Source: Lineus longissimus (lineage: Eukaryota > Nemertea > Pilidiophora > Heteronemertea > Lineidae). From it: a stretch of DNA of 64,000 bases. Below, piece by piece: positions 6,258 through 28,547 of the stretch (the first letter of the stretch is position 1; each line of letters opens with the position of its first letter). A program made the position numbers and the translations under genes. The stretch lies in the NCBI RefSeq assembly GCF_910592395.1, contig NC_088312.1:3782001-3846000 (forward strand), written 5' to 3'. Under the pieces are notes generated by a model. The model had not been told where the DNA came from. It searched no databases and was given only the letters and a program-made list of their open reading frames with translations.

Positions 6258-6926
6258 CTGAAAAAGAATGGATCAATTGTTTATATTTTTCAGTGTATTT
6301 GTGTGCTTTCTCGATGACTGCTCCAATCTAAAATGACTGTTCGAGTGACCTTCCCTAGTCAGCCCTACTGTAAAGGCAAAACGCAGTTTTAAGAAAATCA
6401 CGATTTTGTGACACTTGATTAATAGAAAACGTGAAGCTCGTGTCTATAGGAAGGGAACACAGACCAGCTTTCCTCATTATTAGGAACAGAACAGGGGCAG
6501 TGGTCACTCAAGTCAAACAACATGCATGGCTTCAAGTAAAAGCATTAGGAGTAACTCTGTTGTGGCAACAGCAAGGATGAATGTGAGAGAGGCAAGGAGG
6601 GTCATTTAGAGGAATACTAAGAAAGGGTCTAGAAAGGCCGTACCTTGAGCCAATGTAAGATTCAGACGAACATATTTTTATCGTTATCTCACTTTAACCA
6701 AAATGTATATCTCTGCCTTTTGCCTTAGGAGGGCAGCATTGTAAGGTGACGAATTAAGGTATGGTTTTATAGGACGTCTTAAGCATTCCCATACTTGAAT
6801 AGATTGACGAGTTGTTTGGTCGAATCATGAAACGTAGATCTGGGGTGCTAGAAAACTAGCAGGAATACATTCTCTTGGCAATCAAGCTGAATGATTTATT
6901 GAGGAGTAAAGAGATGGGTAACCTAC

Positions 6927-8036: not shown

Positions 8037-8047
8037 TGGTTATCGAT

Positions 8048-12620: not shown

Positions 12621-13747
12621 CTATATCTCTCCTTTCTTTGCATATTTTTTAACTAAAAATGTTACTGGCAGAGTTCCATTGAGAATGTCATTCTTCATTT
12701 CATTGTCACTTTTTGCTTTTAGAATGATAGTCCTTAGGGCACGGTTGTAAATGTGCATGGATACCTTTTTACACAGATTGAATGCCTCCTTCTCTATTCC
12801 TGTGACAAGGTTATGAGTTTCCTGAAAGAAAAGAAATAGGACAATTTGTTACCATTGATTCAAACATATACTAATCAACTCGAAGAGTTTTCCAGATTGA
12901 CTGTGTTGAGGGACAATTTATCAAAGGTAAAATTCTTTGCTTGAAATGGGTAGGTTAATTTGGTGCCATTTTGAGACCTCTGTGATACATGCTGCTGCCA
13001 TGAGAGAATAACATTTTCATTTCATGCTGAAAAAAGTTTTCCATTTTCTCAAAATAACTAGAAATAATCTGTCTTTATGCTTGTATTCACCTGAACACCC
13101 AAGGCAATTGCTAAATGCTTCCTAGCTTTTATCCTCAAGGATTCCGTCTTTGCATCATACTTGACTTCAATTGGCTTCAGCTTTGATCTTTCTGCGTAAA
13201 AGTTCTTCCACTTATGATAGATTGCCTTGGCTTGTTTCGCCACGTCCTCATCATCATGCCGAACTAGCTTCCTCACAATCTGACCTATGATAAAAGTGGA
13301 AAGACTTTTTAACTTTGTTGTTAAACGAGTTTTGGGCAAGGGCATACAATAATGAATTCAGTTAAGTATTGTAAGGTAAGGTACATATACAGGCATATTC
13401 ATGAATAAATATACTTGCCTATTTTCGTTTCCATGATGATTTCTTTCGACGGAATCTTTTCACCCAGCTCTTTCAAAGCTTTTGCTAAATCTTCATTTGA
13501 GGTCTGTTTGTTAACCAGGATTTCCTTTATTTTCTTGATATCATCAACAACAACAACTCTCTGAAACATAAAATAGATTACATTTATCATGCACTCACTG
13601 TTTGAATATTTTTGACACACCCTGTATAAAATCTCAACTAACCGTGAGAGATTTGATTGTGACTTGTTTTAGGCCTTTTCCCTTGGATTTCGACGGCCAA
13701 TTGCTTGCTGTCGAAGGCCCTGGTAATTTCACGACATATTTGTCCAT
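12621..13747 (-). CDS. TCEANC2: TCEANC2: TFIIS N-terminal and central domain-containing protein 2
   Basis: Complete four-exon gene for 213 residues (human protein about 208). Exons on the minus strand: 13643-13747, 13419-13560, 13091-13284, 12621-12821. Exon 1 starts MDKYVVKLPGP (human starts MDKFVVRTP). Exon 2 encodes RVVVVDDIKKIKEIL and ALKELGEKIPSKEI, close to human RVVVVEDIKRWK and ALQELKKKIPSRE; exon 3 encodes the rest of the TFIIS N-terminal (LW) helical bundle (IGQIVRKLVRHDD...LAREVY-like AKQAKAIYHKWK). Exon 4 carries the partial central-domain region with YNRALRTIILKAKSD and the NGTLPV motif. There is no C-terminal zinc ribbon, as expected for this family. The junction between exons 2 and 3 needs a GC-AG intron (G|GCAAGT) to restore TKIGQIV. 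Likely a nuclear factor related to elongation; its detailed role is poorly known. The start codon lies about 700 bases from the cassette gene's first known exon, so the two may share a divergent promoter. Confidence 0.93.
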
Positions 13748-14473
13748 GTTCCAGAGTCAATAAAGGTCAAATAAACTCAGAAAAGGCGATTTTGTTCATC
13801 ATTTAAGAGAACCCTTTAACGTTGACAATAGCGCCGTCTATGAGTGCTTGGACGAAACTCTTGTTTTTCCTCGGTGTCATCATTGCTCTCTTTTATCATC
13901 ATTTTTACATTGTAGGAGCAAAATAAGGCTCAATAATTTAGTTCGTTACTTCATTGGTTATTTTATGCATATATAGAACTAATTGATTGTCAAAAACAAA
14001 GTGCAGTTTGATGGTAAGCAGTTCATAACGTTAGCCGCAAAAAAGCCAGCCACCATTTTCCTTTGTGCTCTATGTACACACTAAGCCAATACATTGTTGC
14101 AGGGGTGTGTTGGCCAGCGCCAGTGGCCTTGTGTAGATCAAAATGCATGGAACTGATGTATGTTGGGGGAATGCTGGTCAGTTGGCCTGAGTGAGAATAT
14201 AGGATTAGAAAATGTAAAGAGGAATTTTGTGGAGAGTGACAAAGTTCCGTATAACGTGGTAACCTGTGACGTTACTGCGGCCAGTGTGGGTCATCCTTCA
14301 CCTAATTCGTGATCAACAAAAGAAACCAGAAATCTTTAGTCTGAAAATGCTACATTTGCTCCATATGATAATCATTTATCTTTAGTCTATACTCCCGTTT
14401 TGCAGAAATGCTTCATTTCACTTTCTCGTTTCAGTGTGATCCTCTCTAAAGATCGCTCGAGACCAGTTGAGTT
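13748..14473. promoter_or_regulatory. Divergent intergenic region and 5'UTR of the cassette gene
   Basis: About 0.7 kb separates the TCEANC2 start (minus) from the cassette gene's ATG (plus). A TTTCTCGTTTCAG acceptor places the start of the ATG-bearing exon at 14435. The 5'UTR exon must lie upstream; ATG|GTAAGC with last base 14013 is one possible donor. A motif reading AAAATGGTGGC on the minus strand at about 14050 resembles a YY1 site. Promoter function is inferred from position. Confidence 0.45.
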
Positions 14474-15166
14474 ATGATGAGGGATGAAATTATGCAGGAT
14501 TCAACTGAAATGGCTGAAGAAGAGGATCAGAATCAATCGGAGCCAGTCACCCGAAACTCAAGTCCCAGTCCTTTCATCAACATGCAGACTGAGCTACACA
14601 GCAAGGGGGCTGTGCTTACAAAAGCGTGGTCTGATCTGTTCAGTTTTATAACCAAGTACCAAGCAGAGCTAATGGTGAAGGAAAATACAATTGAAATTGC
14701 AGAGAAAGAAATTGACGTTCGTAAAAAGCAACTCCAGGAGTTGAAACCTGCTGTCTCGGCTGGAAATGAGGAAATTTCCCGACTACAGGAGGAGATAAAT
14801 ACAAAAGAACGATTATTATCTAAAGCTCAAATTGAACTCTCGGTGAAGGAACAGATGTTACAAAGGGTACAATCAGATTTGTCGAGTCACAAGGGACATT
14901 TAGATAGATCCAGATCGGAACTTTTTGAAAAACAGGGCGATCTTATACGTCATCGAAGTGATTTAGAACGATTAAAATCTGAATTGACAATAAAGGAAGA
15001 ACAGATTCAAATTAAGGACAATCTATTGAAAAAGTTACAGACGCAGCTTATGAGAGAGAATGCGGAGTTGAAAGAACAATTAGAATTGGAGAAACGGAAT
15101 GCGCAGTTGAGTTTGGAAGCAGAGAGACGTGCCCATGAAATGACCAAACGTTCACTTCGCCAAAAA
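14474..15166 (+). CDS. Cassette gene, constant exon 1: coiled-coil module
   Basis: Constant N-terminal exon of an alternatively spliced zinc-finger gene; 231 residues from the double Met at 14474 to the donor AAA|GTAAGT (last base 15166), ending in phase 0. The leader is acidic. It is followed by HSKGAVLTKAWSDLFSFITK and YQAELMVKE, the same motif as in the minus-strand paralogue (KG..L...WS.L...I..YQ..L..KE), then about 170 residues of uninterrupted heptad-type coiled coil rich in Glu, Lys, Leu and Gln. A repeated pattern L..(A/V)(Q/R)(I/S)(E/D)L...(K/E) is visible. Reading through the donor would add 16 codons and a stop at 15217. There is no BTB, SCAN or KRAB domain. Expected role: dimerisation or partner choice for all isoforms (inference). 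Confidence 0.9.
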
Positions 15167-15423
15167 GTAAGTAGGTTAGAAGAGACCACCATGTGTGTAT
15201 CCTGCCCGTCCTGCTGACGAAGTAATTTAGTTTTTGAAGGCAATCACAATCAAATATGTTGTTGGATGAGGAATGCCCAATTGTAACATCTAGTTAGCCC
15301 AGCTGCAATTGTTCTGCTTCCTGTTAAAACATCTTGTAGAAGTGGGTACATGTAGTTATGGTTCATTCTCCTCTCCTAGAGATCGAGTGTTCAATTCTCT
15401 CACTCTCTCACTTCCATTTTCAG

Positions 15424-16044
15424 AAAACCACCACAAGTGCCAATGTGATAGAAATACCGGATTCACCTCCTACTCTAGATCTATCCGTGGAAAATGCCGA
15501 CTTCGGACTCTCAAATATCATTTCGATGACAGATTCCCGCAGCCAAGCCATGGAACAAGACCATTCTCACATGAGGTTGTCTCATGAGCCGTCTTTTTCT
15601 CAGCTATCAAACACTGCCAGTTCTCTATCAGAACTTTCTAGGAGATTCTCAAATTCACAGTCTAGCATGTCACAGTCACACGAACAATCGTCATGGCGGA
15701 CACCGCCAAAAGTGACGCCAACGATGTCATCATCACCAATAAAACATCCAGAAACAGTCCGAAAGATTGAGTCCTCCTTTGTTGAGGGAGCAGCAGCTTC
15801 AACATCTAGTGACATTTTTTTCCCTCTTAGTGTCTCGGCTGAAGATTCCTTGAGTGAACTTGACAATTCCACAATGCTCACTGATTCTGGTGACATGAAA
15901 GGCCAGTTTTCCCCGTCAGGCCGAATGCCAGGGACGCCTGGTTCTAGTGACAGTAATCAAGGACCTGTCCCAATATCGGGGCCGATCCCTATTTCTGCTG
16001 GGATGTCGCCAGGTGGCAGCACAGAAGGTGGTGGAGATGGAAAG
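15424..16044 (+). CDS. Cassette gene, constant exon 2: Ser/Thr/Pro-rich linker
   Basis: Starts after CTTCCATTTTCAG and ends at AAAG|GTAGGG (last base 16044), 207 codons, phase 0 at both ends. It encodes a probably disordered segment rich in Ser, Thr and Pro with a SPSFSQLSNTASSLSELS-type stretch and a Gly-rich end (GGSTEGGGDGK). No domain is recognised; candidate phosphorylation or activation region. If the intron is retained, translation stops at 16138-16140, giving a fingerless protein of about 470 residues. The ATG at 15358 lies in the preceding intron and is not a start. Confidence 0.85.
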
Positions 16045-17650
16045 GTAGGGATCGAATCTTTTGGCCATTTCACTTACAAAATGCTGAAAGCCTTTTCAAA
16101 TGGGAAGATAGATCAGGATATTCATGATATTGGTCATTGACCTTGGTGTAAAAAATGCAGAAAATTTAAATGCGATTTAAGTTACAGAAAGACCAGCTTT
16201 ACCTCCCATGAAACCTTTTATTTTACTCCATGACATATTTGAGTCAGGTATCTAGTAATATTGTAAGAGTGAGTCCACGGACTGTTCTTGACGGTGTAAA
16301 CGGATCATGTCATTTCTTAAGGGGAAACTACAATCATGTAGGCAGGAGTCTGTTGGGTCAGATTAGGTTACACAAAGTCGCATATAGGCAATATAGGGGT
16401 CACCTGTCTTACAGTCACAGTATCATAACTAATCAGGCCTTCATGAGGAAATATCCCCTGTGCTTCTTTTCATTTTAAAAGGCTTTCAACAAGTAGGTTT
16501 ATGGTATGGCATGGAATAGGGTGTTCAAGTACAGCATGAACAAACAGTTTTAAGCTGTAAAATTACTAGGCAGATTGAAAAACTGAACATAGGACATGGT
16601 TGAGAGCCTTAATCTTGCCATGCCATAGACATTTTCTTCCGCATTCGCCAACACCCACTTCCCTCAAGCAGTAAATTGGGTATTAGCCAATCAGGTGTCA
16701 ATATTATGCCTGAATGGGGCTGAAAACATAGCGTTGGTTGAGTTCTGGGCAATACCTTATCAGTCATCCCCAATCACTGCTTGAGGAAAGTGGTGAATAG
16801 GCTGGGCCACATCCCATAGACACATTAGAACAGATTTTGATCATACCAGACCTGCCTGAGAGCATTCAACTTCAAATTCTTTCATGATTCAATTATTAGG
16901 GGGGGAAAAGATATTTCTGGTGTTTGGCTCGGTTTGTGTCAGTTTGATGTGGCCCATGGTAGTTTTAAAAAAGGTAAAGTAGTTTAAATCAGAGTCAATT
17001 GTTTTGGAAACCTCTGCTTGTTATGCAGTGTGTATGTTTTTTCGCAAGACATGTTAGACAAACATATATTGTAGAGACGTGAAAAATAAGGGGATTCATT
17101 TACAGCTAAGGTCATGTATATAATGGGGTTTACGATTTCATTTATAGTCTGAAAGTCCAGCTTGTCATCTCAGTGGACCAGACATCTCCAATATTACCTC
17201 ATTTGCCTGATTGGGGAACAATTTTCATTCAATGATTGTCAAGTGGTCTTGCCAAGAAATCATCTCTCTGCATGATGTATGTGACTGTCTACATCGTAGG
17301 GGTTGGCTTGCTAATGCCAGTTCTTACCATAGTTTGTCCTTTGTCTAAGCAGGTTGTAGAGATAAGGCTGATGGTAGCTTTTCAAGCCATGATAGTCTGG
17401 TAAAAGAAGGAATAATGAAAGGTGGAATAAAGTATTTATTCTTTCTTTACGACTTTAGATTCCAAATAGAAGAATCTCCATCCGATTTTAAAATAATGAA
17501 AATGTGTTTTTTTCAGGAAGGAAAAGTTTTCATTTTTGTTACAGACATGACAGAAAAGCATAGTGCATGCATGGAATACTACAAACCAGATATCTTCTCT
17601 ATTCTTCAGAAATTGAATGTAATAAACAAGAAACTTCTTTTCTTTTTCAG
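16045..17650 (+). other. Intron between the constant region and the cassette array
   Basis: No intact finger-encoding exon found. It contains an imperfect inverted repeat (about 16652-16672 with 16776-16795, CCTCAAGCAGT against ACTGCTTGAGG) and a TTTTTTTCAG acceptor with an open phase-0 frame at 17517-17750 that encodes no finger motif. Confidence 0.5.
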
Positions 17651-17800
17651 ATCTTTATGCAAAGCTTTGATGAGAATTTTGAATGTCCCATATGTCGCCA
17701 AATATTTCCATTCAAAGAATTACTTTGTAGTCATTTTGTCCTACGTGTGAAAGAATCTTTTCTGTCCAATTTTTCATTGCAGTTCTTCGAGATTATTTAG
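17651..17800 (+). pseudogene. Degenerate cassette: one incomplete finger
   Basis: After CTTTTCTTTTTCAG the phase-0 frame reads IFMQSFDENFECPICRQIF and continues to a finger-like core with C..C, the hydrophobic positions and the first His (LLCSH). The second His is missing and the frame runs into a hydrophobic tail and a stop at 17798-17800. This is the first cassette-like exon after the constant region. It looks like a decayed cassette; a zinc-free isoform tail is the alternative. Confidence 0.5.
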
Positions 17801-17877
17801 TTAAGGTGACCAGATGTGTGATAAAAGTTTTAACTGCTTTGCACTCCTGCTAATTGGGTGCCTCTCTATTTTTTCAG

Positions 17878-18186
17878 GATTTCAATGTTCGTTTAGCTGA
17901 GGAAAGTAGCAAATTGTCGTATCAGTCATGTCCGTACTGTAATGAAAGATTTCGTACAAAGGAGGCGCTCTATCACCATGCAAGAATGCGGCATTCGCAG
18001 ATCCTTAGAAAACCATACTCGTGTCAATATTGTGATTTGAACTTTGCGCAGAAAATTCACCTCGTGCGACATATTCGTAAACATACTGGAGAAAGGCCGT
18101 TTGTCTGCAGCATTTGTAATAAAACTTTTGCTCGGGATGATAGTAGAAAGAACCATGAGAGATTTGTCCATAAAAAGATGTCTTGA
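17878..18186 (+). CDS. Cassette A: alternative 3' exon with three C2H2 fingers
   Basis: Starts after CTATTTTTTCAG in phase 0 and ends with TGA at 18184-18186; 102 residues. Fingers: CPYCNERF..., CQYCDLNF... and CSICNKTF.... The first has H-X4-H spacing (HARMRH). The TGERPF linker joins fingers 2 and 3. Helix contact positions (-1, 2, 3, 6) are T-E-A-H, Q-I-H-R and R-D-S-N; the last finger has the FAR.D form shared by many cassettes. An AATAAA at 18312 can end the transcript. Confidence 0.9.
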   Translation, partial: DFNVRLAEESSKLSYQSCPYCNERFRTKEALYHHARMRHSQILRKPYSCQYCDLNFAQKIHLVRHIRKHTGERPFVCSICNKTFARDDSRKNHERFVHKKMS

Positions 18187-18311
18187 CCGACGAGAGAACT
18201 TTAAAAACTGGCGTCATTGGAGTAGATGTCGCCACTTTAAGATCTTAACCACCGGGTCTCTTGTCTCAATTGTTACTGATGAGGCCAGCATTGTTATGGA
18301 CCATGGACAGT

Positions 18312-18317
18312 AATAAA
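18312..18317 (+). terminator. Poly(A) signal after cassette A
   Basis: AATAAA 126 bases past the cassette A stop codon and before the cassette B acceptor, so A can be a true 3'-terminal exon. Confidence 0.55.
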
Positions 18318-18551
18318 ATACAGACACAGTGTCAGTGACACTAAACTAAAGTCCTTGATACATTTTGTCATCGATGGTTTTACTGCCTCTCTGATTTGCT
18401 ATCAGAGCAGAGCTGGGTGTGAGAGAAACAGTGCAACATGCAGGATCTAGAAATTTAAATTTGGTGTCAATTTTGCCTTATTACCCATTTCTCCCAAAAT
18501 AAAAAGAGGTTAAGGTCCAAAATTGTCAATTCTGTTTCTTGACTTTTGCAG

Positions 18552-18848
18552 AATTGGTGCAGATCTGTTCATGAGGATGATGGGGAAAGCAACGCAGATA
18601 TGTCAAACTTCGGTCGACCTGATCATTTCATGCCACATCATTTTAATACACAAAAGGATAATAAGTGTGTTCACTGTGGGAGAAGCTTTACACATAAAAG
18701 TGACCTCCGTCGCCATGTCAGGATACACACAGGAGAAAAGCCATTCATGTGTACATACTGCAAAAAATCATTCAGTCGTTCTGACGCGCTTAATTCACAT
18801 CTTGGATTTGTCCATAAAGTAGTAGTGAGGGGAAGGCCTGGGACTTGA
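18552..18848 (+). CDS. Cassette B: alternative 3' exon with two C2H2 fingers
   Basis: Starts after GACTTTTGCAG in phase 0 and ends with TGA at 18846-18848; 98 residues. A 40-residue acidic and His-rich leader precedes two fingers, CVHCGRSF... and CTYCKKSF..., joined by TGEKPF. Helix contacts are H-S-D-R and R-D-A-S. The second finger ends HLGFVH (H-X4-H). The tail is basic (VVVRGRPGT). Confidence 0.9.
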
Positions 18849-19314
18849 AATTGAGGGCTGTTGTTTCACTGACAATTGGAGTCAAAACTGATTGGTGCGA
18901 ATGGAAAATGTATCTTCCGTGAAAAACGGTTAAGATGGGGTACGCTAGACAATGTCAACTGGTGCAGTCTCCTGGACGCTTTACGTTCTTTATAGTCCTA
19001 TGGGTTTATGATTTTGATGATGGGTTGATGACGAATTTGATAAACATCTTCTTTCCACTCTGGTCAATGACTGGATAAACTCTGTTCTCGGCAGAAGAAT
19101 GCTACTTCCAATCCAAGTATGGAAAGATAGCCTGCCCCACCATACACCTGCATGAACTCTCTTTTGAGAGGGAGTCCCCATTACTTTTGCAGGATATGGG
19201 TTTGGATTACTTAATAGTAAATGGACAAGTTCTGAAATCTGTGTTCCAAATCTCTCAAAGGAAAGATATAGAATTCGAGTTTCATTGTCTCAAAATCCTG
19301 TTGTCTCTTTGCAG

Positions 19315-19683
19315 AGCGTGTTTACTTGTCACCTCTGCAACACAGGATGGGCATCCGTAGAATTCCTACACAGCCATATGCGATCAAGCCATAAAAACCT
19401 CGGACAAGCTTCGGACGTTTCAAAACCGATACAGTGTTCAGAATGTGGGAAAACGTTTGCAGTGCAGCGTAATCTACGGAGACACATGCTGTTGCATTCT
19501 GGGGAAAGACCATTCGTTTGTGATATTTGTGGAAAAGCATACAGTCGACAAGATTCACTGCGAAAACATATGATTATGACACATTCTGGTTTTGATCCTC
19601 AGTCTGCCATGCAGGCTTTGGAAGACTCGGGCGATTGTAAAAAAGAGGCGGTGAATTTCGTCTTCCTCTCTCCCACCCCTTAG
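19315..19683 (+). CDS. Cassette C: alternative 3' exon with three C2H2 fingers
   Basis: Starts after GTCTCTTTGCAG in phase 0 and ends with TAG at 19681-19683; 122 residues. Fingers: CHLCNTGW... (Trp where Phe is usual, H-X4-H), CSECGKTF... and CDICGKAY..., with a long linker between the first two and SGERPF between the last two. Helix contacts are S-E-F-S, V-R-N-R and R-D-S-K. A 31-residue tail follows. Only 112 bases separate its stop from the cassette D acceptor and no AATAAA is seen there. Confidence 0.9.
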   Translation, partial: SVFTCHLCNTGWASVEFLHSHMRSSHKNLGQASDVSKPIQCSECGKTFAVQRNLRRHMLLHSGERPFVCDICGKAYSRQDSLRKHMIMTHSGFDPQSAMQALEDSGDCKKEAVNFVFLSPTP

Positions 19684-19795
19684 GAAATCTCCTTAGCCTG
19701 GCATTTGTATTTGTGCTGCGTTGTGCTAGGACCATGTAGTCCAGAGTGTCTTCTTAAATCTGCCTCTCTCATTATGATATTACGTATCTTTGCAG

Positions 19796-20161
19796 ACAGA
19801 GGCCTGGGAATGCAATGGTAATTCTGATTGGGAGACATCGGTTCGAAAGAAACCTCGGAACCAAACCCGCCATAAAATTCCTCAATGTTCAGTTTGCGGG
19901 ACAACGTTTGCTCGAAATCGTAACCTACAGCGACATATGCTTATTCACACAGGAGAGAAACCATATTCGTGTAATCTCTGTTCCAAATCATTCAGTCGCC
20001 AGGACAGGTTTCGAAGTCATATGTTACTACAACATGCAATGGCATCGCAGTATGATTCGGGAGAAAGTGCATTTGTTTGTAGTGTTTGTAATGTGGGTTT
20101 CAGTGACTTGGATTCCTTTCAAGAACATAATGTTATGCACGCAAAACAGGAAGACATCTAA
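19796..20161 (+). CDS. Cassette D: alternative 3' exon with three C2H2 fingers
   Basis: Starts after CGTATCTTTGCAG in phase 0 and ends with TAA at 20159-20161; 121 residues. A basic leader (RKKPRNQTRHK) may act as a nuclear signal. Fingers: CSVCGTTF..., CNLCSKSF... and CSVCNVGF..., TGEKPY between the first two. Helix contacts are R-R-N-R, R-D-R-S and D-D-S-E. Its first two fingers resemble fingers 2 and 3 of cassette C (RNLRRHML/RNLQRHML), pointing to duplication of neighbouring exons. Confidence 0.9.
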   Translation, partial: TEAWECNGNSDWETSVRKKPRNQTRHKIPQCSVCGTTFARNRNLQRHMLIHTGEKPYSCNLCSKSFSRQDRFRSHMLLQHAMASQYDSGESAFVCSVCNVGFSDLDSFQEHNVMHAKQEDI

Positions 20162-20385
20162 TCTGGTGTGTGTGCGTCAGATGGTTGATGCTATTCTTGA
20201 AATTTGAATTGAATCGTTCTTCTTATAGCATTCTGAACTTTTGAGATGCAAGCTCAGTCTATTTTCAGTAACAAAGTCACAGGTAACTTCCTCAACGAAT
20301 CAAATGCAAACTGGGGGAAATCAATATTCAAAACTGGTTGCCACAACTGAAGTCTAGTATTGATTTCCTTCTTTCTGTCTTGCAG

Positions 20386-20724
20386 ATAACTGATGCCCCT
20401 GGGGAGAAAGGCCAGAACCATCACTGCCATTCATGTAACCGGCTATTCCCCTCTTGGAACACATTACTGGCTCACCATGTACGAACCCACAACTTCAATT
20501 TAAAGGGGCAAAATCCTGCTGGCTTCCAGAGACCATACAAGTGTCAACAATGTGGTCAAACCTATTTACATAAACATCACTTAGATAGACATAAGAGGCA
20601 ACATACTGGTGAAAATATCAGCATTTGTGTTGTGTGTAAAAAGGAGTTCAGCCGGCCTGATTCTCTCAAGAGGCATCAGTTACTCATGCATAAAGACATA
20701 CTCGTAACACAGAAGTCTAGCTAG
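20386..20724 (+). CDS. Cassette E: alternative 3' exon with three C2H2 fingers
   Basis: Starts after TTTCTGTCTTGCAG in phase 0 and ends with TAG at 20722-20724; 112 residues. Fingers: CHSCNRLF... (extra His, LLAHHVRTH), CQQCGQTY... and CVVCKKEF.... Helix contacts are S-N-T-A, H-H-H-R and R-D-S-R. The linker between fingers 2 and 3 is TGENIS, not TGEKP. A clear AATAAA follows at 20968. Confidence 0.9.
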   Translation: MTDAPGEKGQNHHCHSCNRLFPSWNTLLAHHVRTHNFNLKGQNPAGFQRPYKCQQCGQTYLHKHHLDRHKRQHTGENISICVVCKKEFSRPDSLKRHQLLMHKDILVTQKSS

Positions 20725-20967
20725 TCAGACTTAGCATTACAATGGTAAAGGCAGTAACTCCAAATTGCTATGAAAGGACAGGACTGGTTGGCCTGCCTGA
20801 TTCCTGCTAATCTGGGGAAGAGATTCTCCAGGGTGTTCATGGATATGCCCTTGTGCGTTTTCTTTATTGTCATGCCTTCATTCTGGTGCAATACATTATA
20901 TCATTTATGGCTTTGTGTTTGTGAACTATTCTTTTATATTGATGTTAAAGTTGTCAATCTCAATTGA

Positions 20968-20973
20968 AATAAA
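20968..20973 (+). terminator. Poly(A) signal after cassette E
   Basis: AATAAA 244 bases after the cassette E stop, followed by AT-rich and T/G-rich sequence. Confidence 0.55.
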
Positions 20974-21479
20974 CCTTTATCAAAATAATCCTTATTTCCT
21001 TGTGGTTACTGTGCACTGTATAACATTTCCGAACTGTTAGTACTGAGCAACATGGATTACAGGAAAAGCACAAAAAATGTCATTTTGTGTTTGTATTGCC
21101 TACTTAATATGAAGAAATGCACATGGAAATGACAGGAGATAAAAATGAGACTGAGTGGCGGTCAAACCCAACCCTGCATTTACATGAAGACTACCTCAAA
21201 AGATATCCTCGATCGTCTTGACCTACAAAATTTAACTCAAGAGCTTATGCAGGATACAAGTCTTTGTGGCATGACCTCTGCAGATGCAGCCCTAAGATGC
21301 CCTCAACTTGCTTTACACCAAGCCTTATGATGCCAAGTGTAACGAGTTAACGTTTTCTGCTTTCCGAGTCCTACACCATGGACCATCTCCCATTATGAAG
21401 GTCCACGAATGTGGCACTCTCATGAGCCTTTGGAAGACAATTTGGCTTGACTTTAATACTGGACATCTTATTCTTGCAG

Positions 21480-21752
21480 ATTACCAGTAAATCCAACAAA
21501 TATGTTTGCAAGTTCTGCCATCGGCTGTGTTCATGCAATCGGCAGTTGTTACATCACTTGAGGACTCACACGGGAGAACGACCGCATAAGTGTCCTCACT
21601 GTCCGCTCACATTCTCGCAGGAGGTCAACTTGGAACGACATTTCAGAAAACATACAGGAGAAAAACCTTATAAATGTCTTGTCTGTGGCAAGGCTTTTAG
21701 TCGACCAGACTATCTAAAGTGCCATAAGATAAAAGCTCATACCATGAAGTGA
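21480..21752 (+). CDS. Cassette F: alternative 3' exon with three C2H2 fingers
   Basis: Starts after CTTATTCTTGCAG in phase 0 and ends with TGA at 21750-21752; 90 residues with almost no leader. Fingers: CKFCHRLC..., CPHCPLTF... and CLVCGKAF..., linked by TGERPH and TGEKPY. The first finger has Cys where the core Phe is usual. Helix contacts are C-R-Q-H, Q-V-N-R and R-D-Y-C. The last finger has H-X4-H spacing. Confidence 0.9.
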   Translation: MTSKSNKYVCKFCHRLCSCNRQLLHHLRTHTGERPHKCPHCPLTFSQEVNLERHFRKHTGEKPYKCLVCGKAFSRPDYLKCHKIKAHTMK

Positions 21753-22190
21753 GGCTTTGGTCGGACTCATTGATTCATCCTCATGATGACTGTAAAGTGC
21801 CATTGATAAGATGAGATGAGGCTTTGGCTGGTGAACTCTCGAACAAACTGAGTCATCATGGTCATCTGCTGGTCCCGAAATGAAGATTTGTGACGCTCTT
21901 TTTGGTAATTTTGTTCATGAACCAACCGGGTTCACTTGTGTTTGAAACCAGGGACCTATTCAAGGACGGACCTATTCGATATGACAATTAGATCTGGCAT
22001 GGTATGACTTGGAATTGATGTGGGTGTCGGTTGTGATTTGTGTCATGCCAAGAGGATGAGAGGTTACTTCTGGCATGCGTATTCATTCCCTTAAAGTAAA
22101 CTGTATAAATACGACAGCAGTAGTCATTGTATGCTTATGGTTTAGAATATTCCTCGGTCTTGAAAGATTTTTTTCCGTTCCTGATTTCAG

Positions 22191-22580
22191 GCCATTGTAC
22201 ACCAAACAGGAAACCTAAAAGCTGCCCAGTTATTCTACAAGAAGCTAATAGAGTCAAATCACTTATCTTTTCAGTTCGTATTATTTAAAGCCGGGAAACT
22301 CCTCGAGACAAAATCAGGTCGACCAATGAATGTCTATCAGTGTGACTACTGCCTGCGGATTTGTCCGTCAAGAGCGTCGCTGAGGATACATGTGCGATCT
22401 CATACAAAAGAACGCCCTCATGTTTGCAAGATTTGCCAAATGGCGTTTCCGATAACGAACAGTTTGACTCGGCATATGAGGATACACACAGGAGAAAAAC
22501 CATATAAATGTGACCTATGTGGTGCGACGTTTTCTCGCTTGGATAAACTCAATTTGCATAAAGCTAGAGTGCATGAGTAA
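22191..22580 (+). CDS. Cassette G: alternative 3' exon with three C2H2 fingers, two possible acceptors
   Basis: Two good acceptors exist, both phase 0: TTTTCCGTTCCTGATTTCAG (exon from 22191, 129 residues) and CTTATCTTTTCAG (exon from 22275, 101 residues). The stop is TAA at 22578-22580. Fingers: CDYCLRIC..., CKICQMAF... and CDLCGATF..., linked by TKERPH and TGEKPY. Helix contacts are S-A-S-I, I-N-S-R and R-D-K-L. It matches cassette F in having Cys at the Phe position of finger 1, so the two are probably duplicates. Confidence 0.88.
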   Translation, partial: AIVHQTGNLKAAQLFYKKLIESNHLSFQFVLFKAGKLLETKSGRPMNVYQCDYCLRICPSRASLRIHVRSHTKERPHVCKICQMAFPITNSLTRHMRIHTGEKPYKCDLCGATFSRLDKLNLHKARVHE

Positions 22581-22935
22581 CCCATCTTGAACTTGAAGTG
22601 AAGTTTTAAATACACAATGCTGTAGTGCAGTTACCATGCACATTTGCTGAAACTTTGTATTAACAATAACAGTATTTATGTGTTGTCTGTCTACACACTG
22701 GCAAAGTTTGTTACCATTTTACTATTAGGAGTTTGGGATCCAGTGGACATCATCATCATCATTGGGTCTTTTCATTTCTAGAATAGTATTCATCAATCGT
22801 TTCTTCCACTCAGGAATTCTGCCGACAAGGACATTCAGAGTTGACACTTTCCAAGTGGTGGTAGCATTTACACAGCATAAGTCATTATAAGCCAATATGC
22901 CTATGGAGTAACTCCCTCTTTTTGTCTTCTTACAG

Positions 22936-23280
22936 TTACAGTTCCTGCTCGGCCAACTTCCTAGGCGTTTTTTTGCCGCGAGCATCAAGTGTCGTTTCTG
23001 TGATAAACTATTCAGTCCGGTGCATAAGTACGATTTGAAGAAGCATGAGAGGATCCACACAGGAGAAAAACCATATTCTTGTGAAATTTGTGGTCGGCGT
23101 TTTAGCGACCCGTCGTCCAAAGCGCGGCACAGACGGACTCATTTCCGAGACAAACAGGACGTTCTTGAGAATAGATATATGTCCTTTTCTGAAAGAGGCG
23201 CTTCGGTTCAGAATGCAGACAGTTCATTTCAAAACATTGGGACTTCAAATGCATTTCAAAGAAAAGACAACCATTCCTAG
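22936..23280 (+). CDS. Cassette H: alternative 3' exon with two C2H2 fingers
   Basis: Starts after CTTTTTGTCTTCTTACAG in phase 0 (a second CAG six bases on is also phase 0) and ends with TAG at 23278-23280; 114 residues. Finger 1, CRFCDKLF..., has 14 instead of 12 residues between the second Cys and first His. Finger 2 is CEICGRRF... with contacts D-S-S-R. The linker is TGEKPY. A 40-residue Ser/Asn-rich tail follows. Confidence 0.88.
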
Positions 23281-23501
23281 CCGTTTTCATTTGCCAAGTT
23301 TATAAAACTAGGATGTCTTTTACTATGTTTTTTTTACATACAGAAAGTGCTCCTCTTGTTCGTTTACTTTGATTGACTTGCAGTCAGAATTCATCGGTGA
23401 GCAACAAATGGAGGACAGGCAAGGACTATAAAAGAATGATTAGTGCAGTATGATTAGTTGTACAGGCTTTTAACATGTTTCCAACTCTTTTTTTCTTGCA
23501 G

Positions 23502-23765
23502 TTTAAAAACGGGAGCATTAGACCGCAGACTCGAGCAGGAAGAGTTGGAAACAGCGCTACCTATCTTGCAAACTTTCGCTTCTTGTGCCGTTATTGTGGA
23601 AAAAGGTTCCATCGCAAAGATAATTATGAAAAGCACGTGAGAGTTCACACAGGAGAGATGCCATATGCATGTCCATGCTGTAACAAGAGATATAGTGACA
23701 AGTCAAACCTGAATAAACATGTGAAACGTCATCAATCGGATTTGATACTTCCGTCTATTGTTTAG
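23502..23765 (+). CDS. Cassette I: alternative 3' exon with two C2H2 fingers
   Basis: Starts after CTCTTTTTTTCTTGCAG in phase 0 and ends with TAG at 23763-23765; 87 residues. Fingers: CRYCGKRF... and CPCCNKRY..., linked by TGEMPY, with contacts R-D-N-K and D-S-N-K. A basic leader (RPQTRAGR) precedes them. The second finger shares the (F/Y)SD.S form with cassette H, its left neighbour. Confidence 0.9.
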   Translation, partial: FKNGSIRPQTRAGRVGNSATYLANFRFLCRYCGKRFHRKDNYEKHVRVHTGEMPYACPCCNKRYSDKSNLNKHVKRHQSDLILPSIV

Positions 23766-23854
23766 GAGGATTCACAGTTAAAGGATGTTTTAAGGCCATG
23801 AGCGTGTATGGAGATACCGTGTACAGACCAACACAGTATTTGCTTCATTTTCAG

Positions 23855-24048
23855 ACAGCTTGGAAAAGTCACCTGCCTTCTTCCACCGATTGTATTGGAA
23901 TCAGTTCAGTTCTTTTCTGTTTGGTGCTTGTGGAAGCGTCCTTGCACAGCTATCCCATCTGTCTCAAAGGTATCTCCTCGGAACCTCTCCAGTTGCGTTT
24001 GTGGGAACCAAGTTCGTTGAGGGTCAATATCTCCAGCTGTTTGAATAA
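23855..24048 (+). pseudogene. Degenerate cassette between I and J
   Basis: A TTCATTTTCAG acceptor precedes sequence that still looks like broken fingers in two frames: ACGSVLAQLSHLSQ in one and CVCGNQVR in another. A two-base insertion between the first two Cys codons and loss of His codons would explain it. It lies immediately before the cassette J acceptor. Reads as a decayed cassette; it cannot encode a working finger as it stands. Confidence 0.4.
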
Positions 24049-24072
24049 GTTCTGTCGCTTTTTGTCTTCCAG

Positions 24073-24405
24073 CGTGCTCGGATGGCCATGCCCTTTCTCG
24101 CACAGAAAGTACTTCAGAATCTGCACTTTCCATTTTGCTGTCGCTGGTGTGGGAAAGTGTGTTCATCGATGATCAGTTTAAAACAACATGAACGAGTCCA
24201 CACAGGGGAACGCCCTTTCAAATGCAGCCAATGTGAAAAAACATTTGCCCAAACTTCGAACTTGAAAAAACACTTTGGTCGTGTTCATAGCGGAGAAAGA
24301 CCGTTCGTTTGTCAATTCTGCGATAAAGCCTTCAGTGTGAATGTTGATCTTGAGCGCCACATGCGTACAAGGAATTGCCCAAAGTTGAAATTGAACCCGA
24401 ACTGA
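24073..24405 (+). CDS. Cassette J: alternative 3' exon with three fingers, last one C2HC
   Basis: Starts after GCTTTTTGTCTTCCAG in phase 0 and ends with TGA at 24403-24405; 110 residues. Fingers: CRWCGKVC..., CSQCEKTF... (H-X4-H) and CQFCDKAF.... The third ends HMRTRNC, so Cys replaces the last His. Linkers are TGERPF and SGERPF. Helix contacts are S-I-S-Q (approximate, finger 1), Q-S-N-K and V-V-D-R. AATAAA lies at 24593. Confidence 0.9.
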   Translation, partial: RARMAMPFLAQKVLQNLHFPFCCRWCGKVCSSMISLKQHERVHTGERPFKCSQCEKTFAQTSNLKKHFGRVHSGERPFVCQFCDKAFSVNVDLERHMRTRNCPKLKLNPN

Positions 24406-24592
24406 TAATGTCACTGTGAAAAAAACGTTTTCCCAAGAGCACTTTGACAATGAAGCATTCGAACCAAAGCTGTTCCAGAACGACGCATGTGTATGAGGAA
24501 TTGTCCAACTTGTAGGAAGGGCTTCATGCAGTATCATTGTGTTCTTTGACTGTATTCAATGCATATTACTCTGTGTATAATGTTCAGTTTCC

Positions 24593-24598
24593 AATAAA
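24593..24598 (+). terminator. Poly(A) signal after cassette J
   Basis: AATAAA 188 bases after the cassette J stop, 147 bases before the cassette K acceptor. Confidence 0.55.
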
Positions 24599-24744
24599 AA
24601 GTTCAGAATATCACCAAAATTTTATCTATATGTCCAATTCCATTGGAAATGATACTATGATTCAGTGATTTGCCACGATTTCATTCACCAAATTTTGAAG
24701 TCTACTGCCAAGAATGTAATCCAGTCCTAATATTGATCTTGCAG

Positions 24745-25071
24745 GGTCGAGCAGTGTGGATCAAGGAGATGCTGGATGATTTGATTGGCCGCCCCTGCAG
24801 TGCTAGCTTCGTCTGCAAGTTGTGCTCAACTGCTTTGGGATCCAGGAAAAGTTTGATTCGACATATGCGTATTCACACAGGAGAAAAACCATATGCTTGC
24901 AAATTTTGTGATAGGAAATTCTCGAGAGAGAGCTCTATGAAAAGACACTCAAAGATTCACACAGGAGAGAGGCCTCATGTTTGCCAGATCTGTGGCAGAG
25001 GATTCACTCGGCTAGACTCGCTCAGGACGCACATAATGCAAGCGCATGCAGATTCAGTTACAGACTTGTGA
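24745..25071 (+). CDS. Cassette K: alternative 3' exon with three C2H2 fingers
   Basis: Starts after ATTGATCTTGCAG in phase 0 and ends with TGA at 25069-25071; 108 residues. Fingers: CKLCSTAL..., CKFCDRKF... and CQICGRGF..., linked by TGEKPY and TGERPH. The third has contacts R-D-S-T and H-X4-H spacing. The consensus linkers and lack of odd residues make it one of the most canonical cassettes. AATAAA lies at 25146. Confidence 0.9.
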   Translation, partial: GRAVWIKEMLDDLIGRPCSASFVCKLCSTALGSRKSLIRHMRIHTGEKPYACKFCDRKFSRESSMKRHSKIHTGERPHVCQICGRGFTRLDSLRTHIMQAHADSVTDL

Positions 25072-25145
25072 TCAAGGAGTTGAGGTTGACGAGAACTGAG
25101 AGGCCTGCTTCATTTCATTTTGATGGATTAATCTTTTGACAAGTT

Positions 25146-25151
25146 AATAAA
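25146..25151 (+). terminator. Poly(A) signal after cassette K
   Basis: AATAAA 75 bases after the cassette K stop. Confidence 0.5.
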
Positions 25152-25254
25152 TACCTCACAGTATTGATGAAGCATGATGTGGACTCCCCATTGAGTCTTT
25201 TGAGTATGATTATTCAGCTGAACTCTCACAAAACTTAACTGATTTATCTTGCAG

Positions 25255-25314
25255 TTGACAGAACATTCCCAAGAAGGGAAAGACAACAAGTCAAAGACTG
25301 TGAATGGTTTGTGA
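25255..25314 (+). pseudogene. Decayed duplicate of the 5' part of cassette L
   Basis: The acceptor and first ~50 bases (TTAACTGATTTATCTTGCAG, then LTEHSQEGKDNKSKTVNGL and a stop) align with the start of cassette L 142 bases downstream (TTAACTGATTTCTATTCCAG, LMAYSLEGRDKRTKTADI). Further on, TCATGCACATGC recurs at the matching finger-1 position. It is a relic of tandem duplication of this exon and now opens a 19-codon finger-free terminal exon at most. Confidence 0.7.
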
Positions 25315-25396
25315 TATCCAGCATATCCAAGCATGGCTCAGTCATGCACATGCATTTTGATATAGTCTCATGAAAATTAACTGATTTCTATTCCAG

Positions 25397-25714
25397 TTAA
25401 TGGCATATTCCCTAGAGGGACGGGACAAAAGGACGAAGACTGCGGACATCCGGTGCAAGGTTTGTGGGGTGTGCCTGACGTCCAAACAAGGATTGGTCAT
25501 GCACATGCGGCGTCACACCGGTGAAAGACCTTTCAAATGTCAATATTGTAGTAAGGATTTCCCGCATGAATACACATTACGTCGGCATGTCCTATTACAT
25601 ACAGGAGAAAGGCCGTACAAGTGCACCCTCTGCGGGAAAGGATTCGTACAGTCGTCGACGCTGAAAATACATATCATGGACAAACATAGAGGAGGTCTGA
25701 ACCAAAATAGATAA
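25397..25714 (+). CDS. Cassette L: alternative 3' exon with three C2H2 fingers
   Basis: Starts after GATTTCTATTCCAG in phase 0 and ends with TAG or TAA at 25712-25714; 105 residues. Fingers: CKVCGVCL..., CQYCSKDF... and CTLCGKGF..., linked by TGERPF and TGERPY. It is clearly paralogous to cassette M (CGV.L in finger 1, FPH in finger 2, GFIQ/GFVQ in finger 3, HRGG/HRGI after the last His). Confidence 0.9.
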   Translation, partial: LMAYSLEGRDKRTKTADIRCKVCGVCLTSKQGLVMHMRRHTGERPFKCQYCSKDFPHEYTLRRHVLLHTGERPYKCTLCGKGFVQSSTLKIHIMDKHRGGLNQNR

Positions 25715-25997
25715 CAAAATACTGTACTTGTAGTAACACCTGCTAGCCCACCCTTGGCTGCTCGGAAGACGTGTTGATGGGCAGACCAGACCGACAATGT
25801 AGAAACTGAGGATACTCCACGGCCATGCCGGTGACAGAGGGGTAGGCCTAAATTACAAGAATAATCTGACCAGCAAGTGCAGGAATATTCATTTCACACA
25901 TTGTATTTTTCAAAGCTGTATCTGATGAGAAAGATCCACTTCCACACCAAATGCACCAAGGAACGATCGTTAATAGTCAGTCAAACTTTATCATATT

Positions 25998-26265
25998 TGC
26001 GGGGGCCGCGCTATCACACGTGGTTGCTATCGTCTGCACTGTAGTTCTACCCGTTGCCGCCACAGTGATTTTGGTGGCGCTGCTGGTCGCCTTGCGCATG
26101 CATTAGCGGCTAGTTTCCCGCTCGCTTCGTTGCCATGGAGTCTCCGGTCACGAGTTCCTCGAATCGTTCGTTGATTTGCTAGTCTCAGTACTGGCGGGCT
26201 GCCATTCTCGCACTTGTTACTGTGGGCTGGGTCGGCCCAAAGATGGACAAACAGTCGGCATGACT
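25998..26265. promoter_or_regulatory. CpG-dense island inside the cassette array
   Basis: About 25 CpG dinucleotides occur in roughly 270 bases between cassettes L and M, in a locus where CpG is otherwise sparse. It contains GCGCATGC, several GCCGC/GGCGC runs and CCGCTCGCTTCGTTGCC. There is no finger exon in it. A candidate internal promoter or insulator; function is inference. Confidence 0.35.
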
Positions 26266-26515
26266 ATCAGAGCTGACTCAATATGGCTAAAAGTGACAGC
26301 CACTTGGCTAAAAAGTGGCTAGGAGGAAAAAATTCACAGAGCCAACCCTGCCATGCTAGTGAAAAATTCATCTGAAAGTTTTCTCCAGGTAGCTTCAGCA
26401 ATGATCACGAGTGTTCTCCCTAGTGCATTGACCAAGTAGCCATAGAAATGGCCAAGTTACAAAGGAAAGGCAGTAACATTTCCCTGCTCATCGTATTTTA
26501 TGTTATATTTTGCAG

Positions 26516-26872
26516 TTGCGAGACACTGGCCAGTTTCCACTGCAACGACCAATGCAAACGAAATCCTGGAAGGATCTCCCAGCTAGGAAATTTCAACCTT
26601 ATGTCTGCAAGATCTGTGGTGTCACACTCCGCGCAAGCCATGGTCTTAAAATGCACATGAGGAGACACACTGGTGAAAAACCATATGTGTGTCCGCAGTG
26701 TGATCGGGCGTTTCCTCATAAGAACTCTCTTCAGAGACATGTCAGGCTACATGGACAGACTCCATATAAATGTCCAACATGTGGCATGGGATTCATCCAG
26801 GCAATTTCTTTGAGACAACATCAGATTGATCAACATCGTGGAATATTTGACCCAACTGACTTGAACCTTTGA
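26516..26872 (+). CDS. Cassette M: alternative 3' exon with three C2H2 fingers
   Basis: Starts after TATGTTATATTTTGCAG in phase 0 and ends with TGA at 26870-26872; 118 residues. Fingers: CKICGVTL..., CPQCDRAF... and CPTCGMGF..., linked by TGEKPY and a shortened GQTPY. Paralogue of cassette L. AATAAA lies at 27213. Confidence 0.9.
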   Translation: MRDTGQFPLQRPMQTKSWKDLPARKFQPYVCKICGVTLRASHGLKMHMRRHTGEKPYVCPQCDRAFPHKNSLQRHVRLHGQTPYKCPTCGMGFIQAISLRQHQIDQHRGIFDPTDLNL

Positions 26873-27212
26873 AAATGAATGCTACATTTTCAGTTCAAAT
26901 AATGAAAGTACTTATTAGAACCTGTGATTGAACTGTTTTATACCTCTGAATACTGATGCATGCTTTCTTCAAATTGAGACGTTATTGCTTTTAACTTTTT
27001 CCGAGTCATTTTGCAGTAACAGTACTGATGATTATCTTCCATTGTACTCAACTCCAGTTTTGGTGCAAAATCATTTGTTTTCATTCAGTTTTAACTCAAG
27101 TGAGGTCAGGTCTGTAGAAAACACTGCCTGTGTTGCATTCTAAAGGTGTTCACCAATGGGAGCTCCTTTGTTCTGCATCTTCTGTATTGATTGTTTTGTC
27201 GGACTAAAAAAT

Positions 27213-27218
27213 AATAAA
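27213..27218 (+). terminator. Poly(A) signal between cassettes M and N
   Basis: AATAAA 341 bases after the cassette M stop and 46 bases before the cassette N acceptor. Confidence 0.4.
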
Positions 27219-27263
27219 AGCACACAATAATTGGCTGTAATCTTGTACTCTGTCTCGTTGCAG

Positions 27264-27575
27264 ACTAGACCAGGTGATCCAAATTTAGCATTTCGTGGAG
27301 TGTCTGGGCCACCATACTACTGCAGTGTATGTAACTATGGTGCAGCAACGCCCGCAAATCTGAGGGTCCACATGAGAAAACACACAGGGGACCGTCCATT
27401 TAAGTGTGACCAGTGCAGCCGGTCTTTTAGCAACATGTCAAACTTGTACCGTCATGTGCGAACTCACACTTGCGCTGGTTTTCCTTGTGAATTCTGTGGG
27501 AAAAGTTTTGAGAAGAAACGTTTGCTGCAGGATCATTTGACGGTGCATTATGAACTGGTCAAGAACAAGGCATGA
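27264..27575 (+). CDS. Cassette N: alternative 3' exon with three C2H2 fingers
   Basis: Starts after CTCTGTCTCGTTGCAG in phase 0 and ends with TGA at 27573-27575; 103 residues. Fingers: CSVCNYGA... , CDQCSRSF... and CEFCGKSF.... The TGDRPF linker joins fingers 1 and 2; TCAGFP joins 2 and 3. Helix contacts are N-S-N-R for finger 2 and K-R-L-D for finger 3. Paralogous to cassette O, which has the same S.SF...SNL.RH finger 2 and a (K/E)(K/R)..LL..H finger 3. Confidence 0.9.
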   Translation, partial: TRPGDPNLAFRGVSGPPYYCSVCNYGAATPANLRVHMRKHTGDRPFKCDQCSRSFSNMSNLYRHVRTHTCAGFPCEFCGKSFEKKRLLQDHLTVHYELVKNKA

Positions 27576-27800
27576 CAGATATAAGACATTGTCATCTTGA
27601 TGTTGTGAGTTAGATTTCAGTTAATGCAGAAGAATTGTTGCAATGGGAAGAGCTTGTTGTGTCAAATGGGGCTAATTTTCATTTCAAATAAGAAGAGAGG
27701 TTATGTGATTTTCATAAAATCAAGAGGCGAGGTACAGTAAAGGTTTTTAAAATACTCCAGAAGATAGGTAATTTTCACTAAAATCAAGAATGCAAATTAT

Positions 27801-27806
27801 AATAAA
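27801..27806 (+). terminator. Poly(A) signal after cassette N
   Basis: AATAAA 226 bases after the cassette N stop. Confidence 0.45.
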
Positions 27807-27850
27807 TACGTTTTTATGAGAAATAAGAATCTTTTTGACTTTTTTCTCAG

Positions 27851-27940
27851 CGTCCACAACTCTCTCAGGACAAAGATGCCAATGTTGTCATCCATTTCCC
27901 AGCTTCTGAGACTAGCAACACCATGGTCAAAGACAGATAA
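27851..27940 (+). other. Possible finger-free terminal exon
   Basis: A strong acceptor (GACTTTTTTCTCAG) opens a phase-0 frame of 29 residues (RPQLSQDKDANVVIHF...) ending in TAA at 27938-27940. No Cys/His motif is present. If used it would give a fingerless isoform able to dimerise but not bind DNA; equally it may be a decayed cassette or chance. Confidence 0.25.
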
Positions 27941-28238
27941 AGTGGCAACTCTCTTAGCTGATATGTCTACTAGCCAGCACTGATTCAGGTCCTGGTTTCA
28001 TGGGAATTTTCAATCTCGATACTGTGAGGAAGGCATTTGTAACTCACTGACACCCCCTCCAATGCAAACAAGTGGTACTGCCACCTGCAAATATAATCAC
28101 TGCAATGTGCGACCAAATAATTGCTTTTCAGTTCCCATCACAGAAATACTCAAATCATAGCAAACCAATTAATTTCAGAATAAGTCACTGAATCATTGCA
28201 TATCTTCACATTAAAATGGACTGTTTGTGTCATTGCAG

Positions 28239-28547
28239 AGCACACCAAGTAGTCCGTGGCTGGCCAAGCTAACCTGCTCAATCTGCAGTAAGGTGCTGAA
28301 GACAACCGGAGGCTACGAGACCCATATGAGGACGCACACGGGAGAGAGACCATTCCGCTGTCTAATATGTGGAAGTAGCTTTACTCATCCTTCAAATCTA
28401 CTGCGTCATAAAAAACAACATTATCGTGCCTTTGTAACCGAATGTAAAATTTGTGGCGAGCGTTTCACTGAAAAGCATTTGCTGCATCAACATCTTAGAA
28501 AGTTTCATTGTTCTGCTATGATTGATGCAGCTAGACGGTCTAGGTAA
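28239..28547 (+). CDS. Cassette O: last intact alternative 3' exon, three C2H2 fingers
   Basis: Starts after GTTTGTGTCATTGCAG in phase 0 and ends with TAA at 28545-28547; 102 residues. Fingers: CSICSKVL..., CLICGSSF... and CKICGERF.... The TGERPF linker joins 1 and 2; YRAFVT joins 2 and 3. Helix contact positions include H-S-N-R in finger 2. The tail is basic (ARRSR). Confidence 0.9.
   Translation, partial: STPSSPWLAKLTCSICSKVLKTTGGYETHMRTHTGERPFRCLICGSSFTHPSNLLRHKKQHYRAFVTECKICGERFTEKHLLHQHLRKFHCSAMIDAARRSR

Follow-up and report, generated by a model that had tools for sequence, protein, structure and literature searches.

The closest described systems to the locus considered here are the insect genes lola and mod(mdg4). 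As set out in the parts of PMC5127561 consulted, lola combines a constant N-terminal part with about 20 alternative C-terminal parts, mostly zinc fingers of differing specificity, and its isoforms can heterodimerise in yeast two-hybrid tests. The mod(mdg4) gene of D. melanogaster joins constant 5′ exons to at least 31 alternative 3′ parts, which mostly encode a zinc-binding module and among which related modules often form tandem exon repeats (PMC4667647, sections consulted). Here we describe a locus of related architecture in the ribbon worm Lineus longissimus, located within a window of 64,000 nucleotides (C5:3782001-3846000, forward strand), where two constant exons encoding a predicted coiled coil and a linker are followed on the same strand by 15 further exons, hereafter cassettes. 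Each cassette has a phase-0 YAG acceptor in frame with its fingers, two or three C2H2 zinc fingers and a stop codon of its own. We consider it very probable that these exons form one transcription unit, in which the constant coiled-coil part is cis-spliced to alternative finger exons to yield a family of transcription factors. The features of the locus, all on the plus strand, are as follows.

14474..15166, +, constant exon 1: start codon, 231 codons, phase-0 end, donor GTAAGT
15424..16044, +, constant exon 2: linker, 207 codons, phase-0 end, family motifs IEIPDSPPTLDLS, FFPLSVS and PVPISGPIP
16045..16053, +, choice-point donor GTAGGGATC, exon 2 ending AAG/GTAGGGATC
17651..17800, +, probable relic cassette: phase-0 acceptor, 49 amino acids (aa), half a finger
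17878..18186, +, cassette 1: 3 fingers
18552..18848, +, cassette 2: 2 fingers
19315..19683, +, cassette 3: 3 fingers, reciprocal best match of cassette 4
19796..20161, +, cassette 4: 3 fingers, NCBI isoform P0004
20386..20724, +, cassette 5: 3 fingers, NCBI isoform P0003
21480..21752, +, cassette 6: 3 fingers, reciprocal best match of cassette 7
22191..22580, +, cassette 7: 3 fingers, extra in-frame acceptor at 22275
22936..23280, +, cassette 8: 2 fingers, one of them C-x14-H, NCBI isoform P0001
23502..23765, +, cassette 9: 2 fingers
24073..24405, +, cassette 10: 3 fingers
24745..25071, +, cassette 11: 3 fingers
25255..25350, +, relic cassette: decayed tandem copy of cassette 12, acceptor included
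25397..25714, +, cassette 12: 3 fingers, reciprocal best match of cassette 13
26516..26872, +, cassette 13: 3 fingers
27264..27575, +, cassette 14: 3 fingers
28239..28547, +, cassette 15: 3 fingers, NCBI isoform P0002

As in lola and mod(mdg4), where most 3′ exons carry a zinc-binding module, such a module is present in 15/15 cassettes of the window, identified by C2H2 pattern (Pfam was run on cassette 1 only). The constant part of lola contains a BTB domain and the gene is a single locus, whereas the Lineus constant part has a predicted coiled coil, each cassette has two or three fingers and there are at least 44 loci. Similarly, mod(mdg4) employs BTB and FLYWCH domains, trans-splicing and exons on both strands, in contrast to the C2H2 fingers of Lineus, where the two-finger cassettes lie on one strand. 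To our knowledge, both insect genes are single loci. No BTB domain was detected by Pfam in exon 1 (exon 2 was not scanned on its own), where the single match was a sub-threshold one to RACo_linker, nor in seven whole proteins from paralogous loci. Thus, lacking BTB in its constant part, the Lineus gene is not a member of the lola or mod(mdg4) family. Arrays of the Dscam1 type also offer many alternatives, one per mRNA, but as internal exons, whereas the Lineus cassettes are terminal exons with stops and display no selector-like motif by k-mer contrast. The tandem C2H2 expansions of cephalopods and vertebrates share with Lineus the large local multiplication of C2H2 modules, but comprise separate genes rather than exons with one common constant part.

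The two constant exons encode 438 aa and each closes in phase 0. Exon 1 begins with 32 disordered aa, followed by a predicted helix of 198 residues (residues 33-230), which AF2, run on a single chain, models as one helix with a mean pLDDT of 88 and a pTM of 0.43. The helix has a heptad pattern of hydrophobic residues, with a heptad contrast of 0.459 compared with a maximum of 0.368 among 2000 shuffles, and most likely forms a coiled-coil dimer, as judged from these predictions. A Foldseek search of the PDB with the exon-1 model returned nothing at E <= 0.001. Within exon 2, the motifs IEIPDSPPTLDLS, FFPLSVS and PVPISGPIP are retained in most loci of the family. The first of these looks like a SUMO-interacting stretch with a corepressor motif of the PxDLS type behind it, and one locus has PLDLS.

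The sequence-only reading, from which this analysis started, had proposed two constant exons of 438 residues comprising a coiled coil and a linker, with coordinates that proved right and a coiled coil that is borne out by prediction, and had placed the phase-0 end of exon 2 at 16044, as we also find. Its 15 cassettes with phase-0 acceptors and stops all have a YAG in frame, and its count of 42 fingers is reproduced, 41 with strict spacing and one, in the cassette at 22936, of the form C-x14-H. The several cassettes said to lack Met before the first finger number 9/15, counted from acceptor to first finger, and the statement that no downstream donor is needed agrees with a simple consensus scan, in which none of the 15 cassettes showed a strong donor, either in its own sequence or in the 100 nt that follow. 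The contact quadruplets of the 42 fingers are all distinct. We also observe that nine of the 15 cassettes (1-7, 9 and 11) contain one finger with R at position -1 and D at position 2, the other fingers being variable; this finger is perhaps a shared ancestral one.

The constancy of splice phase is seen when acceptors are chosen blindly, as the best-scoring site within 200 nt upstream of the first finger. The choice falls on phase 0 in 14/15 window cassettes (binomial p = 2e-6 at 1/3), the exception being the cassette at 28239, where a phase-2 site scores 16.5 and the phase-0 site 14.0. Eight whole stretches of the assembly (216.5 kb), the window among them, contain 145 open reading frames (ORFs) with at least two strictly spaced fingers on the sense strand and 0 on the antisense strand, the window cassette at 22936 counting as one strict finger. 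Blind choice assigns 134 of the 145 to phase 0, 7 to phase 2 and 4 to phase 1, and some in-frame phase-0 acceptor is available to 144. With one-finger ORFs included, there are 162 sense and 4 antisense ORFs, 144 assigned to phase 0 and 156 having an in-frame acceptor; five of the six that have none are single-fingered.

Annotated proteins place junctions at these same acceptors. The NCBI isoforms P0001, P0002, P0003 and P0004 have residues 1-438 in common and then continue into the cassettes at 22936, 28239, 20386 and 19796, respectively. Hence, the predicted junctions from 16044 are supported by NCBI models for these four cassettes, while the other 11 are not among the records seen. The four clusters of the window locus hold 12 member sequences, of which the representatives were compared. 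Among 68 Lineus clusters, 30 share a 50-residue exon-1 word with an examined stretch and the tails of 20 could be placed; in 19 of these 20 the tail that follows the ...GK terminus of exon 2 opens precisely at a phase-0 acceptor. The ten unplaced tails include P0039, which runs past the examined DNA, and P0041, P0021 and P0022, which are absent from it. P0028-P0031 and P0033 have the exon-1 word of stretch 6, but P0028, the sole one compared, differs from that stretch in exon 2, so that this group probably belongs elsewhere.

At the choice point, intron 2 opens with GTAGG in 10/10 exon-2 ends read as DNA; nine have GTAGGRATH and the tenth, on C11, has GTAGGCATC, with the sequences diverging beyond. 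In addition, V-G-I follows the donor in 8/8 exon-2 ORFs from a JGI metagenome source of close relatives. The fourth intron base deviates here from the donor consensus GTRAGT, and a weak donor of this kind, confronted with many acceptors, could plausibly serve to let them compete openly. The pattern GGNAARGTAGGRATH has 42 matches genome-wide compared with 33 for the reversed control; 20 lie on C5, and 16 of these have a same-strand exon-1 relative less than 2.5 kb upstream.

In the mechanism that we infer, from dimerisation and DNA binding through cis splicing to conversion and biological role, exons 1 and 2 would encode the constant part, a long helix forming a coiled-coil dimer and a disordered linker, and the donor at 16045 would be joined in cis to a single terminal exon out of at least 15. 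Every such exon would provide a complete DNA-binding module of two or three fingers and, since it has its own stop, one module would enter each mRNA. Cassettes would multiply through local tandem duplication and then decay, and gene conversion would keep the constant exons alike between some loci, such that the dimerisation surface would be common across loci.

An alternative is that the cassettes have their own promoters and are joined to the constant exons in trans, as occurs in part in fly mod(mdg4) and lola, which are documented as trans-spliced loci with a common 5′ part in the sections of PMC4667647 consulted. Cassettes without a start codon do require a 5′ partner, which trans-splicing would also supply. 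However, all 145 two-finger ORFs lie on the sense strand, whereas some mod(mdg4) acceptors are on the opposite strand (PMC4667647, same sections), and the window array is compact, only about 12.5 kb from the donor to the last stop. We regard joining in trans as improbable, and on the basis of strand and compactness favour splicing in cis. A further alternative is that each cassette is a small zinc-finger gene in its own right, next to a coiled-coil gene to which it is unrelated, the isoform models being annotation artefacts. Tandem C2H2 gene clusters are common in animals, the cephalopod expansions (PMC12513265, parts consulted) being an example. Genes of such a cluster would have their own start codons, but in 8/15 window cassettes the open frame contains no Met ahead of the first finger, and 68/145 two-finger ORFs of the eight stretches likewise have none ahead of theirs. 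The prevalence of phase 0 in blind choices, and the constant exons that precede cassettes at 11/12 loci examined, likewise argue against separate genes, which we consider very improbable.

Several observations nevertheless weigh against a single unit spliced in cis to one terminal exon. Cassettes present in the NCBI records seen are only the four of 15 named above, and the junctions derive from isoform-X models, which can be part prediction rather than RNA reads; isoform-X names denote automatic models, usually built with RNA reads. P0040 has an additional junction, departing from a single terminal exon, and the tail of P0020, another of the ten unplaced, is split over two exons of stretch 4. 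The exact donor pattern is missing at 27/43 C5 loci and at the C11 locus, and the locus at C5:1790383 shows neither fingers nor the exon-2 motif in its first 10 kb. The remaining points come from a set of 140 cassettes, in which stretches 2 and 5 are counted to 26 kb and five two-finger ORFs, including the acceptor-less one, are omitted. A k-mer contrast between the DNA upstream of the 140 acceptors and 480 background stretches revealed no docking or selector motif, only pyrimidine-rich and low-count words. Across the eight stretches AATAAA is not enriched after cassettes (46 sense and 43 antisense control of 138), although the window array alone has 8 sense and 1 antisense. Lastly, in close cassette pairs the contact residues differ at 36/72 positions compared with 53/108 at other variable positions, and thus show no excess.

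The window locus is one of many. Searching the assembly with exon 1 gave 46 matches, 44 on C5, a contig that fits chromosome 5, one on C11 and one on C1, the last a 31-residue fragment with a stop; the C5 matches represent 43 loci, window included, two being halves of one interrupted copy. The sequence-only reading, which had likened the locus to lola and mod(mdg4), was apt as to architecture, with constant 5′ exons and alternative 3′ exons in fixed phase; its scale of at least 15 cassettes stands, but understated the system, the locus being one of at least 44 related loci. The C5 loci include clusters of 10 at 11.34-11.60 Mb, 7 at 22.37-22.58 Mb, 5 at 5.66-5.77 Mb and 4 at 6.96-7.00 Mb. We note six head-to-head pairs on C5 less than 6 kb apart (1.3-3.7 kb), such as 22474131(-)/22477428(+) and 9217236(-)/9219202(+), an arrangement that suggests two-way promoters or inverted duplication. 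At C5:6737047-6737778 an exon-1 relative lies in two pieces with a TGA inside the first, apparently a broken family member. In the protein records 26 different constant parts occur, and 23 of these are represented by two or more member sequences.

The 12 loci examined are the window, seven others, two neighbours within stretches 2 and 6, the C11 locus and C5:1790383. The first 10 kb of the C11 locus contain eight cassettes, seven of them phase 0 by blind choice. Within the 140-cassette set, the stretches hold 24, 23, 22, 17, 15, 14 (window), 14 (stretch 6, two loci) and 11 cassettes, and several stretches stop within an array. By extrapolation, since most of the 44 loci are unread, the family may total several hundred cassettes. 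A linker pattern has 1032 matches in the genome and 0 in the reversed control, and C5, which makes up 6.1% of the assembly, carries 69 of the 150 zf-C2H2 matches that were scored from among 3919 candidates. In P0020, which has the constant part of 11400004+, and P0026, which has that of 11599694-, helix-turn-helix cassettes of the Tc5/CENP-B type stand in place of fingers, situated within the arrays behind exon 2 and perhaps captured from a transposase-like gene. As modules of this type are also joined, the constant part would act as a general adaptor. Whether the whole constitutes a chromosome-scale system, with more than 40 loci, several hundred single-use cassettes, a conserved weak donor, converted constant exons, cross-locus pairing and a constant part serving as a general adaptor for DNA-binding domains, is in our estimation evenly balanced.

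Outside L. longissimus, 17 JGI metagenome proteins correspond to exon 1 or exon 2 of close relatives and probably come from a nemertean of one species. Five of the nine JGI exon-1 proteins pair one-to-one with single Lineus loci at a bootstrap of 100 (P0066/P0078, P0024/P0067, P0053/P0068, P0071/P0077 and P0061/P0076) and four do not, which indicates that at least part of the family had split into loci before the two sources diverged. Searches for relatives of the constant part outside nemerteans, made with the 438 aa, with residues 32-100 and with a profile, returned only L. longissimus and JGI metagenome proteins, from candidates sharing exact words (7992, 86 and 7997, respectively), so that distant relatives may escape. 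None of 76 pattern matches in IMG/VR is a relative. Search listings of the PMC open literature contain no description of this Lineus coiled-coil/zinc-finger family, the main text of PMC10547256 has no occurrence of Lineus, nemertea, isoform, alternative splicing or coiled, and the consulted parts of the L. longissimus assembly paper (PMC8593623) do not mention zinc fingers.

The cassettes themselves are related mainly to neighbours. The 140 cassettes yield 22 pairs that are reciprocal best matches. Of these, 9 connect different stretches and 13 stay inside one, with 11 of the 13 joining adjacent cassettes. The relic at 25255 aligns with the cassette at 25397 with a local score of 89 compared with a maximum of 33 in 500 shuffles. 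Between loci, cassette 8 and one of the cassettes at the 6996649 locus share 71% identity across 51 aa.

Two pairs of loci were compared base by base. The constant exons of 22477428+ and 22474131- are 99.2% (exon 1) and 98.6% (exon 2) identical over ungapped columns, with 11 synonymous and 3 nonsynonymous differences in 428 codons, whereas over intron 1 and the upstream 435 bases the alignment is no better than with shuffled sequence. Those of 11400004+ and 11599694- are 95.6 and 95.9% identical and likewise exon-confined, with 25 synonymous and 26 nonsynonymous differences in 443 codons. In both pairs high identity extends 53-75 bases into intron 2, with weaker similarity beyond, most in 11400004+/11599694-. 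Reciprocal best cassettes between paired loci are 60-66% identical, although at the DNA level the arrays of 22477428+ and 22474131- also have in common segments of 107 bases (95% identical) and of 140 bases (87%). Exon-confined identity of this kind suggests gene conversion between constant exons as its simplest reading. Selection, or recent copying of the exons, could produce a similar pattern, and in its favour the comparison covers just these two pairs, with conversion tracts unmapped, and the weaker similarity deeper in intron 2 of 11400004/11599694 reaches a local score of 195 compared with a shuffle maximum of 46. Selection on the protein would, however, leave synonymous sites free, and the near-identity of synonymous sites in 22477428/22474131, where intron 1 and the upstream DNA score like shuffled sequence, counts against it. 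We therefore consider selection or copying the less likely explanation, though one of some weight, and retain gene conversion as the simpler one.

Elsewhere in the window, the minus strand at 2097-8039 encodes a constant-part relative with matching W, YQ, L and KE positions, which is not among the 46 exon-1 matches. Its first exon extends to 6927, and a phase-0 donor CAG/GTAGGTTAC precedes a giant exon at about 6257-2097 with 13 strict C2H2 matches, a single-cassette form adjoining the array. Exons resembling a small gene with a TFIIS-type N domain, judged by reading alone, lie on the minus strand at about 13001-13750, directly upstream of the array gene and in divergent orientation. Tandem repeats occur at 29800-30443 (100-bp unit x 6.4, 95% matches), 8248-8600 (175-bp x 2), 10350-10667 (17-bp x 18) and 32690-32964 (137-bp x 2). 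Rfam and tRNA scans of the whole window gave no match.

In this ribbon worm, the logic known from lola and mod(mdg4) appears to have emerged around another dimerisation module and to have multiplied to dozens of loci, such that one worm may make several hundred DNA-binding proteins with similar front halves. Its biological role may lie in repressing mobile elements or in controlling cell identity. If this account is true, a sizeable share of the zinc-finger repertoire would be invisible to surveys that use one isoform per gene; the cephalopod survey, as described in the parts of PMC12513265 consulted, kept for each gene just its longest protein, and an architecture of constant part plus cassettes would escape notice under such a filter. 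The locus also offers a natural experiment, both on the choice of a single donor among at least 15 acceptors and on constant parts that are seemingly in concerted evolution while the variable parts turn over.

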